Source: a virus. From it: DNA of 64,000 nucleotides. Shown here one piece after another: positions 2,267-55,717 of this stretch. Location of the stretch: IMG/VR virus record IMGVR_UViG_3300020172_001601, positions 252,198 through 316,197 of that record. One strand, written 5' to 3'. Each line of letters starts with the position of its first letter. Position 1 is the first letter of the stretch. A program made the translations under genes and the position numbers. Under the pieces are notes generated by a model that was not told the DNA's origin, made no database searches, and worked only from the letters and a program-made list of their open reading frames with translations.

Positions 2267-4279
2267 ATGGACGACACACAATACATTGACGACGCTGGAA
2301 GATATAGAGTCTTTGGACACAACCCGAACTATGGACGATCAGAAAACATCTATCCAACCGAAAGTGTCATAAAGGCCATGTTCGGCTGGCAAAAAGACGC
2401 TTTCGAGATGGGAAAAGATGAACGATTTTTCTTGACCCAGGCGTTCTGTGGTAGTGGGAAATCCATTCTTCAAATCAATCTGGCTATCCACGATATTGTC
2501 TCCAGTGGATATAGACAGAAGCAGTTGTTCGTAGTTCCACAGGAGCATATTCACAAAGGATTTGTGGGCGATGGACTCGACCTGTTCATGAGAGTCCAAC
2601 AGGGAGGCGTAGAATACAATTGGGCCATTCAACCACATCACAATTTCTGCCACGGTATCAGCCGCATTGAAAACCTCAAGAAGTGGTTACTCACGCCCCC
2701 TGAAAAGCTCGCCAAGGGATTCACCGGACAAGTTATTGGTGGACTAAATGCCGTTTGCTCTCATGCTGCACTGGCTCAAGCATGGAAGGAAATCAAGGCA
2801 GAATACGGCAATGAAGGTCTAAACAAGATCATTCGCAATCTGACTCTAAGGGTCGATGAAGCACACCATATCAGTCTTGTATTCATGGAGGGCGAAGACC
2901 TCACTTATGATGAATGGAAGGCCATTAAAAGTGAAATTACCGCTCTCGGCGACATCTGTACCTATATCGTGAATAGCCGTGTCCGGTCGTGCAAACTCCA
3001 TCTCACAACTGCAACCATGTATCGGGGCGATTCTCGCATTGTTCTATCACTGGAGGTTCGAGCCAAATTTAAGCCATACTACTTGGATTGGATTAAGCAT
3101 TTTGAATCTCTGAACATCAGAGAGTTTCTTCTTCAATATGAATTCTATGAGGAAAATCCCATTGACCTCATGGTGGCACGCATTCTTGCTGAACCCAATG
3201 AAAAACACTTCGTTGTTGTTCCAAGGTCTGGCAGCAAGTGGAGAAGTGAAGGCAACGAACATGAAGCTATATTTGACAAGCTCAATGGTAGTGGACTTCG
3301 GGTTCTTGATCTCGTCACCAAGACGACGCAAAAAAAGAACAAGAAACTATTGCTCGATGAACCTAAGTCTTTCAACCCTGATACGCCATCGAATTTCGAT
3401 GTGGTCGTTGTCTGTAATTTAGGTCGAGAAGGAACAGATTGGTGTCCCTGTTCACGACTTCACAATTCATCTTGTGAGGCGTCTATCACCCTCGCAGTCC
3501 AAACTGTTGGTAGGCCGTTTCGTCGCTATCAAGGCAAAGAAACAGTCAACATCTATCACTATGTCAAGAAGTTCGTGATGCCGAAGAAAGGCATCACCCT
3601 CAAAGAACTCCTTGGAGATCGAACCACTGCCATCCTCTACTGTATGCAAATAGAGGATTTGACGAATCCAATACTCATTATTGACGATTCGTTTGAACTG
3701 CCTGACCAAAATCCCAATCCGAAAGATACAGAAAACACAGAAGGCATAGAGCCAACTACAGCCCTAGTTCCTTTTCAGAATTACTTTGGGGATCAATACG
3801 AGAATGTCATTCGAGCCGCATTACAAGGATATGAAAAACTGACTCAAGAGTTTGAAGATCGGCCCAAGTCCAAAGACGTTTATAACTTAATGGGCCAAAT
3901 CTGTGATGAATTTGGAATCGACAAAGATCATGAATCTCGTGATAATATCCAATGGGCGCTTACAAGCCGTTTCATACGAATGGCATCACCACAAGCAAAA
4001 CTTGATGGCGTCGATGTTGAATTCCTCCGACAAGCTGGCTTCAATGAAATTGACGTGAAGTATGAACTTGACCGATCCATTTACTTCAAGAACTGCTCCA
4101 AAGAAATCTGGCTCACTATCAGAACCATCATACATGGAGAGTGGCAAGAAAAGTTCGATCAAGTCAAAGCGATTGGATTGGAAAACATTATCAAACTACA
4201 AACTCATCCTTTGTTTTGGTTCGTGAAGCATCAGTTGTATATTCATGGAAATAAACGACAGATTCATGGAAAGCAGTAA
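2267..4279 (+). CDS. Superfamily 2 DEAD/DEAH-type helicase
   Basis: 670 aa. The motifs appear in order: Walker A AFCGSGKS (about 59-66), motif II DEAH (about 197-200), motif III LTTAT, motif V around GREGTDW, and motif VI QTVGRPFRR. This is the two-RecA-domain architecture of SF2 helicases and translocases that use ATP to move on nucleic acid. About 200 C-terminal residues lie beyond motif VI and may be a specificity domain. The start is ATG 2267, immediately after the previous stop. The next gene starts 1 nt after its end. It could act in replication initiation, recombination or restriction-like DNA translocation; the sequence does not decide. Confidence 0.88.
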   Translation: MDDTQYIDDAGRYRVFGHNPNYGRSENIYPTESVIKAMFGWQKDAFEMGKDERFFLTQAFCGSGKSILQINLAIHDIVSSGYRQKQLFVVPQEHIHKGFVGDGLDLFMRVQQGGVEYNWAIQPHHNFCHGISRIENLKKWLLTPPEKLAKGFTGQVIGGLNAVCSHAALAQAWKEIKAEYGNEGLNKIIRNLTLRVDEAHHISLVFMEGEDLTYDEWKAIKSEITALGDICTYIVNSRVRSCKLHLTTATMYRGDSRIVLSLEVRAKFKPYYLDWIKHFESLNIREFLLQYEFYEENPIDLMVARILAEPNEKHFVVVPRSGSKWRSEGNEHEAIFDKLNGSGLRVLDLVTKTTQKKNKKLLLDEPKSFNPDTPSNFDVVVVCNLGREGTDWCPCSRLHNSSCEASITLAVQTVGRPFRRYQGKETVNIYHYVKKFVMPKKGITLKELLGDRTTAILYCMQIEDLTNPILIIDDSFELPDQNPNPKDTENTEGIEPTTALVPFQNYFGDQYENVIRAALQGYEKLTQEFEDRPKSKDVYNLMGQICDEFGIDKDHESRDNIQWALTSRFIRMASPQAKLDGVDVEFLRQAGFNEIDVKYELDRSIYFKNCSKEIWLTIRTIIHGEWQEKFDQVKAIGLENIIKLQTHPLFWFVKHQLYIHGNKRQIHGKQ

Positions 4280-22324: not shown

Positions 22325-22879
22325 ATGACAAAGCAATACAGAGAACGCTACGGCACGCATTGGGACATTCGCACCCCGCTGGAAGTGATAGCGGTGCTTG
22401 AGACGGCCCGGCAGAACCGCACTCGACTGCATATCAGCTTGGGTTATACCGAGCATGATGCGGTTGAATGGGAAAACTCATTGGGCGACGAGAAGAAGGC
22501 GGTCGGCCTTGACTGGCTCGAAGAGTATATGAGCTATGGCTACATTGGCCGCAGCACGGGAAGTGTGAAGATACCCCTGTTGGTTCACAATGAGCGGAGC
22601 TATGGTGGCGGGGCGTTGCTGGACCATTGTATTGTCCGCATTCGCACGAGTCGTGGCGGGCGTGTGCTGTGGCAGCATCCGAACTATCATCACGGCAAGA
22701 TCACGATTCACCGCAAGCCGATCCCTCTGGAATATCCGGGTGGCGTGTTGACGGTGGACGTTCGCCGGAATGGGCAGGAGCAGGCAGCGTTTAAGGACAT
22801 GGCATCGGCCCGGCGTTACGTCAACAAGCTGGGATTGAAGGCCGAGATTGTAAACGCTCTGGAAGCGGCCTTGGCTTAG
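22325..22879 (+). CDS. Unknown early protein, 184 aa
   Basis: ATG 22325 behind GCGAGAG. Alpha/beta with a basic His-rich centre (RVLWQHPNYHHGKITIHRK) and a C-terminal helix LKAEIVNALEAALA. It has a DNA- or RNA-binding look but no named family. Confidence 0.6.
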   Translation: MTKQYRERYGTHWDIRTPLEVIAVLETARQNRTRLHISLGYTEHDAVEWENSLGDEKKAVGLDWLEEYMSYGYIGRSTGSVKIPLLVHNERSYGGGALLDHCIVRIRTSRGGRVLWQHPNYHHGKITIHRKPIPLEYPGGVLTVDVRRNGQEQAAFKDMASARRYVNKLGLKAEIVNALEAALA

Positions 22880-22893
22880 GTCCAGTGTACCCT
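22878..22893 (+). promoter_or_regulatory. Element 16 (CCAG form)
   Basis: Overlaps the TAG at 22877-22879. Confidence 0.85.
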
Positions 22894-22930
22894 AGTGGGT
22901 GTAACCAACAACAACACACGGAGAGATACG

Positions 22931-23158: not shown

Positions 23159-23305
23159 ACGGCGGTACTTTAATGGCAGAAGGCGGCTCCAAGCAAGGTT
23201 CGAGTCCTTCTTAGGCTGGAGTTCTGGAGAGTTAGCTACTCTTTGGACCTCCCCCTTTGCATGGAGTACGGGGCGGCAGTGCGGGTTCGACTCCCGCTCG
23301 CTGTG
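23159..23305 (+). tRNA. tRNA-like RNA with a 70-nt insert in the anticodon region
   Basis: The acceptor stem pairs 23159-23165 with 23298-23304. T66-A67 follow as positions 8-9. The D arm is CTTT/GAAG (23168-23171, 23179-23182) with a loop containing TGG. The T arm is GCGGG-TTCGACT-CCCGC (23281-23297). Between a possible anticodon stem (23186-23190 with 23263-23267) lie 72 nt with two hairpins, one itself T-arm-like (AAGG-TTCGAGT-CCTT). No CCA is encoded and no anticodon can be named. It could be an intron-bearing tRNA, a tRNA mimic, or a decayed tandem pair. Confidence 0.5.
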
Positions 23306-34974: not shown

Positions 34975-34986
34975 ACACAGTGTAAC

Positions 34987-35015
34987 GCCTCCCAAACATC
35001 GGCCTTGGGCAAGCC
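34987..35015 (+). repeat. 29-nt direct repeat, copy 1
   Basis: Matches 35169-35197 at 28 of 29 positions; its second half (GGCCTTGGGCAAGCC) can fold. Confidence 0.85.
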
Positions 35016-35211
35016 AATCAATCAGAATAAAGGAACCCCTTCCCATGAATGTCTGAAGTCCGCTAACTCCCCGGCGTAGTCATCCACGTTAGAGCGGGGC
35101 GGGACTGCAAAGCGATGGCCGCACGTCAGCAATGGGCAGCATTGTGCTGGCTGACGTGTGAATGAAGTGCCTCCCAAACATTGGCCTTGGGCAAGCCGAA
35201 AGCAAATGCGT
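35016..35211 (+). ncRNA. Structured non-coding segment between and after direct repeats
   Basis: AGTCC...CCCC pairs with GGGG-C-GGGACT (about 35049-35114), and CACGTCAG pairs with CTGACGTG (about 35134-35170). It ends in a terminator, so it may be a discrete RNA. No gene. Confidence 0.45.
35169..35197 (+). repeat. 29-nt direct repeat, copy 2
   Basis: Same unit with one C-to-T change; the two copies bracket about 150 nt of structured non-coding sequence. Confidence 0.85.
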
Positions 35212-35238
35212 AGGGCAGGACCAACCTGCCCTTTTTTT
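35212..35238 (+). terminator. Terminator
   Basis: AGGGCAGG pairs with CCTGCCCT, then seven T. Confidence 0.9.
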
Positions 35239-35252
35239 GTTTTTGTTTGTGT

Positions 35253-35268
35253 AGGTCTATTGTACCCT
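35253..35268 (+). promoter_or_regulatory. Element 43 (ATTG form) upstream of a tRNA-like RNA
   Basis: The tRNA-like structure begins 25 nt after its end. Confidence 0.88.
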
Positions 35269-35293
35269 AGAGGGTGTAACAAGCGAACAACAT

Positions 35294-35431
35294 GGCGGCG
35301 TAGCTCAACTGGCTAGAGCAACCATCATTATCGTAGCGATTGATCGGGGGTCCACGGTCAATGCGGCCAACGTGTGTACAGCGTTGGTTTGAGAGGATGG
35401 GAAGACGGGGGTTCGATGCCCTCCGCTGTCT
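35294..35431 (+). tRNA. tRNA-like RNA with a 69-nt insert
   Basis: Acceptor GGCGGCG (35294-35300) pairs with CGCTGTC (35424-35430). Then TA, D arm GCTC/GAGC (35303-35306, 35316-35319) with a GG-containing loop, and T arm GGGGG-TTCGATG-CCCTC (35407-35423). A possible anticodon stem CCATC/GATGG (35322-35326 with 35396-35400) is separated by 69 nt containing two hairpins. No 3' CCA; the anticodon is unassignable. Same plan as the RNA at 23159. Confidence 0.55.
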
Positions 35432-35511
35432 GCTTACACTGTAGGGCATTTGCCCGAACAACGAGGCGTCAGAACACGCCTACAACCCCGAAAGGGGAGA
35501 GAGTGTAAGGT

Positions 35512-35527
35512 AGCCGTAGTGTACCCT
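35512..35527 (+). promoter_or_regulatory. Element 44 (CGTAGTG variant)
   Basis: AGCCGTAGTGTACCCT, the most divergent 5' half. Confidence 0.8.
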
Positions 35528-48578: not shown

Positions 48579-49044
48579 AATCCCAGGGCGGGACGGGATG
48601 TTTATCGGCCCACAGGCCCAGCTTATGGCTTTTGGCGTATTCTTGTGCCTCGGCCATTTCCGGTGAATGAGAATAATCCGTATAGTGCCATGCCCAGCCT
48701 TCCTCGATCATTTCCTTGTTGATGTACCTGCCATTCAAATAGACCTTGCCGATAACTCGACCATATCGGTCTTTTTTGGTCCATTCCACTTTGACGTATT
48801 TGCCGAATATTTTCTCGCTGAGTGCTTCTTTGGCTTTGGTTCCGAATGGCTGTTTCTTTTCGGGACAGTCGATTTCGGCCAAGCGAACCTTCATTTGAGT
48901 TTTGTCAGGCTGCAATACTGTGATGGTATCGCCATCGGATATGCCTACAACATTCCCTGGGTCGGAAATAGAAAGACATATCCAAATCACTGGAATGAAC
49001 GAAAGTATGGCAAGAACATAAACCGTCTTATACAGTTTGCTCAT
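48565..49044 (-). CDS. Thermonuclease (staphylococcal-nuclease fold) with membrane anchor or signal
   Basis: 159 aa, ATG 49044. An N-terminal hydrophobic helix (9-26) is followed by the SNase barrel: SDGDTITVL, VRLAEIDCPEKKQPFG with the catalytic Arg-Glu region, and DRYGRVIGKVYLNG with the second Arg. Members cut DNA and RNA with Ca2+. An exported or anchored form would act in the periplasm, for example on host DNA or competing phage DNA. It overlaps the TyrRS stop by one base. Confidence 0.9.
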   Translation of the reverse strand: MSKLYKTVYVLAILSFIPVIWICLSISDPGNVVGISDGDTITVLQPDKTQMKVRLAEIDCPEKKQPFGTKAKEALSEKIFGKYVKVEWTKKDRYGRVIGKVYLNGRYINKEMIEEGWAWHYTDYSHSPEMAEAQEYAKSHKLGLWADKHPVPPWDFRKK

Positions 49045-50144
49045 TAGTTGATCCTAACGAAATCACGGCGTCCACATTGAACGACTTGCCCTGATTGCAG
49101 CAACAATTGTTCATCAAAGACTTTGGTGCCGTCTACTTTGACGGCTCCATCTTTAAGTCTTTGTCGGGCAGCGGTTTTCGAGATATTGCAACAGGCAACT
49201 ACGGCACTCAATAGCGAAGAGGCCGGTAGTGTAGGAATATCTGGAGGCAGTTCTTTGTTCTGCACGGTCTTGAGGAAGTGTTCCTGAGCCGCCTGAGCGA
49301 CTTGTAGTGTGTGTAGTTGATTCACGATCTCGACGGCAAGAATCTTCTTCTTGTCCATCGGATGAATATCCTCGACTGTGAAATCTACAAATAAAGGGAA
49401 CCATTCCTGCATGACGGCATCAGGAATAGACATGACCTTCCCAAATACGTCATTAGGGTCTTCATCGAAGAAGATGCAGTTGTCCAGGCTCTTGCTCATC
49501 TTTCTGCCATCTGTGCCATTGATGATGGGCATCATGATGCAAGACTGAGGTTTCTGTCCGTTGGCTTCTTGTAGATGCCGGGCGACTTGAAAGTTAAACA
49601 ATTGATCCTGCCCGCCGATTTCGATTTCAGATCGGAGGGCAACACTATCCCAGCCTTGGCAGATAGGGACCAAGAGTTCGTGCATACCAATAGATTGCTG
49701 ATTGGCAATACGATCTTGGAAGGCGTTACGGCTGGTCATGTGCGAGAGTGTGAACTTTGCCACCTGTTTCATAAAGGTGGGAAGTGTCATCTGATTATGC
49801 AGCCAACCATTTTTACATATGGTCCATTTTCCTGGGGATTCTGGCCCGAAGTTATCGTTGCCAAGTATTTGCTTGATTTGCACGAAGATGGATTCGGCGT
49901 TGGCTTCAACATCATCTTCAGCCAATATTGGCCGGGTTGTATCACGACCAGAAGGGTCGCCGAGTTGGGCTGTGAAAGTTCCCAATACGATTGTGAGTTG
50001 ATGCCCTTCTTGCATCATCTTTTTGGCGAGACGTAGCGGCACAAGATGCCCCAAATGCAAACGGGGGAAGGTCGGGTCGATCCCAAACTTCACCCGTTTG
50101 CAAGGGGGCAAATCGGCATTTTCAGGAAATACTTGAAAAGCCAT
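49044..50144 (-). CDS. tyrS: Tyrosyl-tRNA synthetase
   Basis: 366 aa. Class I signature HLGH (30-33), the tyrosine-site segment GGQDQLFN (178-185), and KMSKS (215-219) are intact. A C-terminal S4-like RNA-binding domain ends with GAVKVDGTKVFDE. All parts of a bacterial TyrRS are present at near-normal length, so it should charge tRNA-Tyr in the cytoplasm. A full synthetase on a phage is rare. It lies in an operon with the thermonuclease and other unknown genes. Confidence 0.93.
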   Translation of the reverse strand: MAFQVFPENADLPPCKRVKFGIDPTFPRLHLGHLVPLRLAKKMMQEGHQLTIVLGTFTAQLGDPSGRDTTRPILAEDDVEANAESIFVQIKQILGNDNFGPESPGKWTICKNGWLHNQMTLPTFMKQVAKFTLSHMTSRNAFQDRIANQQSIGMHELLVPICQGWDSVALRSEIEIGGQDQLFNFQVARHLQEANGQKPQSCIMMPIINGTDGRKMSKSLDNCIFFDEDPNDVFGKVMSIPDAVMQEWFPLFVDFTVEDIHPMDKKKILAVEIVNQLHTLQVAQAAQEHFLKTVQNKELPPDIPTLPASSLLSAVVACCNISKTAARQRLKDGAVKVDGTKVFDEQLLLQSGQVVQCGRRDFVRIN

Positions 50145-54100: not shown

Positions 54101-55717
54101 TTATTCGTCGTCTTCTGGTGATGGAGAACCTGAAGGAGCGGCGGGTTTGCCGCCACCACTCTTCAGCTTGTTCAGACTGTCCTTCCAACGCTGAGTTGAA
54201 AGATTTCGTTTGACGGAATCGAACTCGCTGCCTTGTGGCGCACGTCCCAGGAACTTCGTATATTCTGGGTTGACGGTTCTTTTGCCATCAGCACCCTGCG
54301 AATATGGTGTCAAATCTTTGTCGTCATGAGCTAAGAAGTTATCGACTTCTGGACCGTGAGCTTTGGCCATCTGCATCCATTCACGAATCTTGCTCTTGGT
54401 CAAACCTGTGTGTGCAGATTTCATGTCATAGAAGTCTTTAGGGTCGAACTTGTTCTTGGCTCCCCACTGATACAGCTTAACCAAATAAGCAATATCTCCA
54501 GACTCTTGCTTGGACCAACCGCCACCAGTCAACATTTTCTTGACATCTTCTGGATCGTTATTGCGAAGAACCCAGGCCGGAGCCAACCAACGGTCGCCTC
54601 GGAAGTCTTCTGGCATTTGTTCTGGGTCAAAGTCAACACCTGGGAAAACACTATTGAGCAAACCAGTATTCTGGAATGCCTTCATGTATTTGCGAGGATC
54701 GCTATCTGGATGTTCCAGACCGCTAAGGAATTCCTTACGAACTGTGTCCTTATCGACGCCATTCATGTCTTTGTGACGGGAGATAGATGCTTGATACTTT
54801 TCAGGAATCTTGTCGGAATTGCCATATCGTGTGACCATCTTCATATATCGCAGAGCGGTAGATGGGTCTTCTGACATGCGGGATTCCAGGTCGTCGCCAA
54901 CAGCCTTAACTTCACCATTCTTCAAATGGTGAGCGCCACCGTGCGGGTCGATCAAGTCGCTATTGTCACCGTCCGCAGTCGTCAGCGGGATGTATAGTGA
55001 GTTAATCGTAAAGTCACGATTGGCTGAATCTTCTTCCACGGATGCGGCTGATTCACCCTTGTCAGGCTGAACTCGGCGGCTCTTAGAAGACTTAGAAAGG
55101 GTGGCAATAGAGAATTGTTCGCCGTTGATTTCGGCGGTTACTTCCAATTCTTTGCCTTGTTTGTCCCAGCGAGAAGCGTAGAAAATCTTGTTCTTAGTGC
55201 CTGGAGATGGAAGTTTTGCATATCTCTCGTCGCTGGCGTAGTCTCCTTCACGGGGCTTCGTTTCGGAAAACTGCGTTTCTAGCTGAGTCAGAATCATACG
55301 CATTTCACTTGGCGTAGCATCTGTAACCAGATCGTAGTTACGAGGGGTCTTGCCCTTCAAATGGTCACGAACGGCACCACCTGTGAGGTACAATACCTTC
55401 TTTTTGAGGTTTGGCTCAACTTCACCCTTGGACTTATCAATCGTGGTGTAGCCTACTCCCACGTTCTGGGAGTCGGCAAATGCCTTGATAAGCACTCTAA
55501 GGTTAGGGTGCGTGGTTTTATTGATGGTAAACGGTGCGAATTCCTTGGAGCCTTCCTTCTTCTGCAATTTAATGCGTGAAGTGATGTTTCCGGCTCCTGG
55601 TTGACCGCTACTACCGCTACTACCGCTGCCACCATTTCCACCGCTGGCCTCGCCTTCACTTGGCTTGGCTCCGGTTTCTTCTCTTAACTGAAAGTAACTT
55701 GCGAATAACTTTTTCAT
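54101..55717 (-). CDS. tRNA nucleotidyltransferase (CCA-adding) / poly(A) polymerase-family protein
   Basis: 538 aa. A Ser/Gly linker (21-45) follows the first 20 residues. Then the nucleotidyltransferase core GGAVRDHLKGK (113-123) with NYD at 127-129 where DxD is usual. Next come NRDFTINSL, LIDPHGG and EDPSTALRYMK: the RRDFT, DP-GG and EDPLR-type motifs of class II CCA-adding enzymes. The family adds CCA or A tails to RNA 3' ends. The first catalytic Asp is Asn here, so activity is uncertain. The C-terminal third is helical. Confidence 0.75.
   Translation of the reverse strand: MKKLFASYFQLREETGAKPSEGEASGGNGGSGSSGSSGQPGAGNITSRIKLQKKEGSKEFAPFTINKTTHPNLRVLIKAFADSQNVGVGYTTIDKSKGEVEPNLKKKVLYLTGGAVRDHLKGKTPRNYDLVTDATPSEMRMILTQLETQFSETKPREGDYASDERYAKLPSPGTKNKIFYASRWDKQGKELEVTAEINGEQFSIATLSKSSKSRRVQPDKGESAASVEEDSANRDFTINSLYIPLTTADGDNSDLIDPHGGAHHLKNGEVKAVGDDLESRMSEDPSTALRYMKMVTRYGNSDKIPEKYQASISRHKDMNGVDKDTVRKEFLSGLEHPDSDPRKYMKAFQNTGLLNSVFPGVDFDPEQMPEDFRGDRWLAPAWVLRNNDPEDVKKMLTGGGWSKQESGDIAYLVKLYQWGAKNKFDPKDFYDMKSAHTGLTKSKIREWMQMAKAHGPEVDNFLAHDDKDLTPYSQGADGKRTVNPEYTKFLGRAPQGSEFDSVKRNLSTQRWKDSLNKLKSGGGKPAAPSGSPSPEDDE

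Follow-up and report, generated by a model that had tools for sequence, protein, structure and literature searches.

Within a virus genome, a stretch of DNA at positions 23,159 to 23,305 of the analyzed window has the arms of a tRNA and, at the place of the anticodon loop, a structured insert. This raises the question of whether the locus encodes a tRNA that is interrupted by an intron or an RNA of another kind that is built on a tRNA body. The window is a stretch of 64,000 nt, corresponding to positions 252198-316197 of the 340,341-base virus record. Detailed scans covered about 124 of the 340 kb, and the whole record was searched with the Rfam tRNA model and the models R1 and R2.

Two tRNA bodies with inserts in the anticodon region

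An earlier note had described the RNA at 23159-23305 (here RNA 1) as tRNA-like, with a 7-bp acceptor, a D arm and a T arm, and all three are indeed present. The insert with two hairpins that it reported was also found, but with a length of 65 nt according to ARAGORN instead of 72 nt, and one of these hairpins does resemble a T arm. The elements of RNA 1 are the following:

23159-23165, plus strand: 5' strand of the acceptor (ACGGCGG), pairing with 23298-23304 in 7 of 7 pairs; invariant in the ortholog
23168-23182, plus strand: D arm (CTTT-AATGGCA-GAAG); in the ortholog both partners of one pair differ
23186-23190, plus strand: 5' strand of the anticodon stem (GCTCC), with its partner GGAGT at 23263-23267; the ortholog keeps 4 of the 5 pairs
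23191-23255, plus strand: insert (65 nt), bordering the anticodon loop on its 5' side, at the ARAGORN intron position
23195-23209, plus strand: T-arm-like hairpin of the insert (AAGG-TTCGAGT-CCTT) with the exact T-loop consensus; invariant in the ortholog
23223-23247, plus strand: 9-bp hairpin of the insert with the loop TTAGCTA at 23232-23238; paired changes, invariant loop
23256-23262, plus strand: TTTGCAT, possible anticodon loop (UGC, Ala); invariant in the ortholog
23281-23297, plus strand: T arm (GCGGG-TTCGACT-CCCGC); in the ortholog both partners of one pair differ
23298-23305, plus strand: 3' strand of the acceptor (TCGCTGT) and discriminator G; CCA is not encoded

Two of the seven acceptor pairs (ACGGCGG/TCGCTGT) are G-U pairs, one of them G3:U70. 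Exact GGTTCGANTCC strings occur twice in the window, both times within RNA 1. The sequence GCAAGG of RNA 1 has alternative partners, namely CUUUGC of the anticodon-loop stretch or, in part, the T-arm-like hairpin, and both are invariant in the two sequences compared.

As the earlier note had anticipated, standard searches miss RNA 1: no tRNA was found in the window by ARAGORN with default settings or by Rfam at gathering thresholds. When introns were allowed, ARAGORN recovered exactly two genes in the window, tRNA-Ala(tgc) at [23158,23306] and tRNA-Leu(gag) at [35294,35431]. The second of these (RNA 2) had been overlooked, as had the wider set of altered tRNAs described below.

35294-35431, plus strand: RNA 2, second tRNA body, detected by intron-allowing ARAGORN and by the Rfam tRNA model (32.5 bits), with orthologs in G002 and G003
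35327-35388, plus strand: insert of RNA 2, 62 nt with two hairpins; conserved in G003

RNA 2 is composed of the acceptor GGCGGCG/CGCTGTC, a D arm, the anticodon stem CCATC/GATGG and a T arm. The position of the insert is the same in both (33/34 as counted by ARAGORN), and the scores of 108 for RNA 1 and 107 for RNA 2 lie within the range of 100-124 of the phage's ordinary tRNAs. With the same settings, 100 dinucleotide shuffles yielded 1 match in total, that is, about 0.01 per window. An independent, strict scan for acceptor, D arm and T arm returned the same two genes, and 1 match in 300 shuffles. Thus, the 7-bp acceptor, the D arm and the T arm of a canonical tRNA are found in both RNAs, but not a 5-bp anticodon stem closing a 7-nt loop, since the genes hold inserts of 65 nt and 62 nt, respectively.

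Covariance models gave further support. The ortholog of RNA 1 reached 36.6 bits against the Rfam tRNA model (gathering score 29), as compared to the 32.5 bits of RNA 2, whereas RNA 1 itself matched Rfam models only with its T arm. In addition, models made from RNA 1 and RNA 2 matched ordinary tRNAs of the 595-kb phage LR756511 (E about 1e-6), which independently supports the tRNA body. The folding energy of the whole RNA 1 was not unusual in comparison with shuffles (z about -1), and therefore the evidence consists of anatomy and conservation, not of stability.

Conservation and genomic setting of the two RNAs

A syntenic ortholog of RNA 1 is present in the relative G003 (locus L029), where homologs of the same flanking genes adjoin it. 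The acceptor, the inner T-arm-like hairpin with its surrounding block (GCTCC.AGCAAGGTTCGAGTCCTTCT.AGG) and CCCCTTTGCATGG are nearly invariant between the two. In the 9-bp stem of the insert, 7 of the 9 pairs are changed on both sides with pairing kept, while the loop UUAGCUA is invariant. Over the whole RNA, 9 pairs are changed on both sides, compared to 1-3 in controls with the partners shifted by 1-3 columns. These paired changes around an invariant loop point to structural selection on RNA 1, as judged from the two aligned sequences. The outer GGAG/CTCC pairs of the hairpin are lost in the ortholog.

RNA 1 is absent at the syntenic place in the 390-kb relative G001, and none of the phage records searched by DNA similarity matched. 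A loose two-block pattern was also used to search for relatives, but 12 of its 13 candidates were something else, mostly tandem tRNAs of the ordinary type, and stricter patterns returned the known relatives only. A 527-kb contig seemed to contain a 153-nt relative, but this overlies an ordinary tRNA region.

RNA 2 has a 100% match in the relative G002 and an ortholog with 88% identity in G003. In the latter, 58 of the 62 nt of the insert are identical, while identity in the alignment around it is about 81%; the supposed anticodon, by contrast, differs (GAG to AAG). The D and T arms are unchanged, the acceptor pair 3:70 is G-C instead of C-G, a pair of the anticodon stem is U-A instead of C-G, and one acceptor pair is lost, so that the acceptor contains an A-A mismatch. 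Given a conserved insert and a changing anticodon, selection seems to act on the insert of RNA 2 rather than on decoding. An insert under selection is expected of a non-coding RNA on a tRNA scaffold. The kinship of this insert with tRNAs is no better than that of shuffles, and no tRNA-derived sequence was found in it.

RNA 2 lies within a conserved non-coding island (window 34985-35512), for which Rfam gave no convincing match. The island also contains a structured stretch at about 35050-35165 with two strong hairpins that is nearly invariant in G002 and G003. Directly after RNA 2, at 35433-35512, there is an RNA of three hairpins with an 8-bp closing stem, in which the first hairpin changes its sequence with pairing kept.

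Both RNAs are positioned between copies of a repeated element, TAGGTCCAGTGTACCCTAGTGGGTGTAAC. Two of the copies are of particular relevance:

22877-22905, plus strand: copy upstream of the gene in front of RNA 1, belonging to an intergenic element with about 50 copies
35252-35280, plus strand: copy directly upstream of RNA 2, just past a terminator at 35212-35232

The intergenic copies of TAGGTCCAGTGTACCCTAGTGGGTGTAAC are found at 13-41 kb of the window (e.g., at 22877, 23310 and 35252). The TAG within the element frequently serves as stop codon for the preceding gene, and some copies come after terminators. The element probably acts as a signal specific to the phage, either as a promoter or in processing, and the promoter role is our inference. 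A small gene lies upstream of RNA 1, which is probably processed out of the transcript of that gene. A terminator and a copy of the element precede RNA 2, which therefore probably has a transcript of its own.

Scaffold, intron or remnant?

Both RNAs combine tRNA anatomy with syntenic conservation, the insert hairpin and tRNA arms covary, and the insert of RNA 2 is conserved. The best explanation, to which we assign a probability of roughly 0.55, is that RNA 1 and RNA 2 are non-decoding phage RNAs in which the cloverleaf is a scaffold for processing and stability and the insert is the working part. We infer that both RNAs would be expressed and processed, with the insert retained and directed at a target. 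The acceptor, D and T arms would enable RNase P and tRNA 3' nucleases to excise the RNA from a longer transcript; the tRNA arms would also protect it, and a CCA enzyme would add the tail. The structured insert, in place of the anticodon arm, would remain in the mature RNA and do the work, most likely by binding a specific protein or RNA via its conserved loop and block. Two insert-bearing tRNA bodies per 64 kb, where about 0.01 are expected, argue for the scaffold, as does the presence of genes for a CCA enzyme and a TyrRS in the window. The conservation of the possible anticodon loop UUUGCAU and of G3:U70 in the ortholog of RNA 1 counts against it, as do the unremarkable folding energy and the small number of orthologs (one for RNA 1, two for RNA 2). 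Ordinary tRNAs number about 50 in the 340-kb phage (G000), most of them at 70-106 kb, and the following genes of tRNA metabolism are relevant for the discussion:

window 49044-50144, minus strand: phage-encoded tyrosyl-tRNA synthetase (TyrRS)
window 54101-55717, minus strand: phage-encoded CCA-adding tRNA nucleotidyltransferase
G000 159336-159815: Rnl2-like RNA ligase (PF09414)
G000 165706-166188: T4 Rnl1-like RNA ligase (PF09511)

By their sequences, the two ligases are predicted to be a T4-style tRNA repair kit. They and the conserved UUUGCAU and G3:U70 make an intron the strongest rival explanation: RNA 1 would be a precursor of tRNA-Ala(UGC), from which the 65-nt insert is excised, with the halves joined by the phage RNA ligases. 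A spliced tRNA had already been considered in the earlier note, and parts of this proposal fit. ARAGORN can draw tRNA-Ala(UGC) with the canonical loop, GCAAGG of the insert is able to pair with CUUUGC of the anticodon loop, and in a tRNA-Met of LR756511 a 21-nt hairpin occupies roughly the equivalent site, with the loop intact. However, the joined RNA 1 would be irregular, with 3 nt between the D and anticodon stems and a variable loop of 13 nt; the anticodon assigned by ARAGORN to the ortholog is a different one (Val AAC), and in RNA 2 the insert is conserved and the anticodon is not. Moreover, no splicing endonuclease (tRNA_int_endo, PF01974) and no RtcB were found in the phage, Rfam intron models, including group I, were unmatched, and the phage already has three ordinary tRNA-Ala. 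Altogether, we regard excision of the insert as rather unlikely.

The many tRNAs and the T4-like ligases would also suit a decoy, that is, a tRNA-like body that diverts tRNA-cutting or tRNA-binding defence proteins of the host from the real tRNAs, and there are known cases of phage tRNAs that counteract defence directed at tRNAs (PMC10264068, PMC11555353). These reports, in the portions available, describe resistant or replacement tRNAs and do not contain the word "decoy". The most conserved part of RNA 2 is the insert and not the acceptor, which has the A-A mismatch in G003, and an anticodon loop is not cleanly displayed. Nothing showed the decoy for anticodon nucleases that the earlier note had in mind, and this function is improbable. 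Its third idea, a fusion of two tRNAs, would account for the second, conserved T-arm sequence in RNA 1, the inner one being tRNA-like, and the phage does contain tRNA arrays. Yet if RNA 1 were a relic of two tandem tRNAs joined by deletion, with no present function, the paired changes and invariant blocks, which indicate selection, would be difficult to explain; a second acceptor or D arm was not found in RNA 1, and the insert of RNA 2 is not tRNA-derived. A relic is likewise improbable. Least probable is a tmRNA-like RNA that is alanylated through G3:U70 and carries a coding or rescue module as its insert. The T arm of RNA 1 matches tmRNA at 13.8 bits, but the Rfam gathering score for tmRNA is not attained and RNA 1 has a true D arm. 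In the alignment, the stops after the conserved block are in different frames (TAG in RNA 1, TGA in the ortholog), so that there is no conserved tag frame.

Known systems and a wider set of altered tRNA bodies

The closest natural precedents for the proposed scaffold RNAs are RNAC (species 1) and RNAD (species 2) of phage T4, small stable RNAs of 119-139 nt that are encoded beside phage tRNAs. Both are late RNAs of unknown function (PMC9697503). Like RNA 1 and RNA 2, RNAC combines a T arm with long hairpins, but it has no clean 7-bp acceptor or D arm, it reaches 17.5 bits with tRNA-Sec, and no sequence kinship was shown. The same plan is realized in the engineered tRNA scaffold (PMC3753655), which keeps the acceptor, T and D arms and in which an RNA insert that keeps a hairpin replaces the anticodon arm. 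That scaffold is a laboratory construct, whereas the arrangement in RNA 1 and RNA 2 is natural and conserved. tmRNA (RF00023) also has a tRNA-Ala-like end with G3:U70 and an extended structure in place of the anticodon; in contrast, RNA 1 has a D arm, lacks a conserved tag frame and is far shorter. Intron-containing tRNAs share the insert in the anticodon loop. In RNA 1 and RNA 2, however, it is on the 5' side of the loop, neither a bulge-helix-bulge nor a group I match is evident, and the anticodon of RNA 2 is not conserved. Defence-evading phage tRNAs, as far as described in the available portions of PMC10264068 and PMC11555353, likewise belong to tRNA-rich phages, to which tRNA repair enzymes are added here, but they decode, whereas the bodies of RNA 1 and RNA 2 have no regular anticodon loop.

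The usual programs for counting phage tRNA genes require a regular anticodon loop, and therefore RNAs like RNA 1 and RNA 2 are invisible in standard annotation. No description of this class of RNAs was found in the open-licence literature. In the survey of huge phages by Al-Shayeb and colleagues, tRNAs were counted with tRNAscan-SE, and the words "intron" and "anticodon" are absent from the main text (PMC7162821). Should the RNAs be natural tRNA scaffolds, evolution would be using a trick of RNA engineers, and the two would become concrete candidates for trans-acting RNAs of phage origin. Should they be spliced instead, they would represent a new kind of phage tRNA intron. The question bears on the large numbers of tRNA genes in huge phages and on the long-unexplained RNAC and RNAD of T4.

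Additional tRNA bodies with altered arms were observed in the same phage and in LR756511, among them three with capped anticodon arms, which also speak for the scaffold:

L023 1326-1417: tRNA body, anticodon arm capped by GAAA in the predicted fold
L023 1805-1912: tRNA body, anticodon arm capped by GTAA in the predicted fold
L050 17816-17890, in the 595-kb phage LR756511: tRNA body, anticodon arm capped by GAAA in the predicted fold

In the predicted folds of L023 1326-1417, 1623-1801 and 1805-1912, the anticodon arm has a GNRA tetraloop or a multi-hairpin domain. The region L023 1326-2047 (G000 70.3-71.05 kb) holds a run of four closely spaced tRNA bodies in which the anticodon or D arm is abnormal; one of them has a multi-hairpin domain of about 86 nt with three GNRA tetraloops. 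The tRNA shape seems to be a natural carrier for other RNA modules in the phage. Tentatively, huge phages may possess RNAs without an anticodon as a class of their own, with the cloverleaf as a general-purpose natural scaffold for varied functional modules (GNRA-capped arms, multi-hairpin domains), matured alongside tRNAs and controlling host or defence factors.

A different type of insert, of about 55 nt and near the D arm, is present in tRNAs of G001, of LR756511 and of a third phage, with the common motif P1-ACTTGGA-hairpin-TCCCC-P1'-TTACAAAC:

L045 625-743, 2450-2580 and about 881-1003: tRNAs with the D-arm-proximal insert
L050 16334-16459 and 18511-18638 (minus), L075 about 3921-3962 (minus): tRNAs with the D-arm-proximal insert

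This insert is possibly a small tRNA intron or a mobile RNA element. In G001 and LR756511 such inserts look removable: an Arg(UCG) gene of a related huge phage becomes a regular tRNA when the insert is removed, which counts against a scaffold function for the whole class. Introns thus may occur elsewhere among these phages, and the wider class may include some of them. The tRNA-Met(CAU) of LR756511 (L054 538-631, minus) has its 21-nt hairpin immediately before the anticodon loop TTCATAA, which is complete.

A hammerhead-like CTGATGA/GAAA in L024 12620-12723 was accounted for by an anticodon-arm stem, and kissing dimers via the palindromic loops (UAGCUA in RNA 1, UGUACA in RNA 2) were unsupported. 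Genes in the window often terminate with TAG. Two tRNAs with a CUA anticodon, at L027 2012-2085 and 2709-2779 (G000 about 182 kb), are probably amber suppressors.
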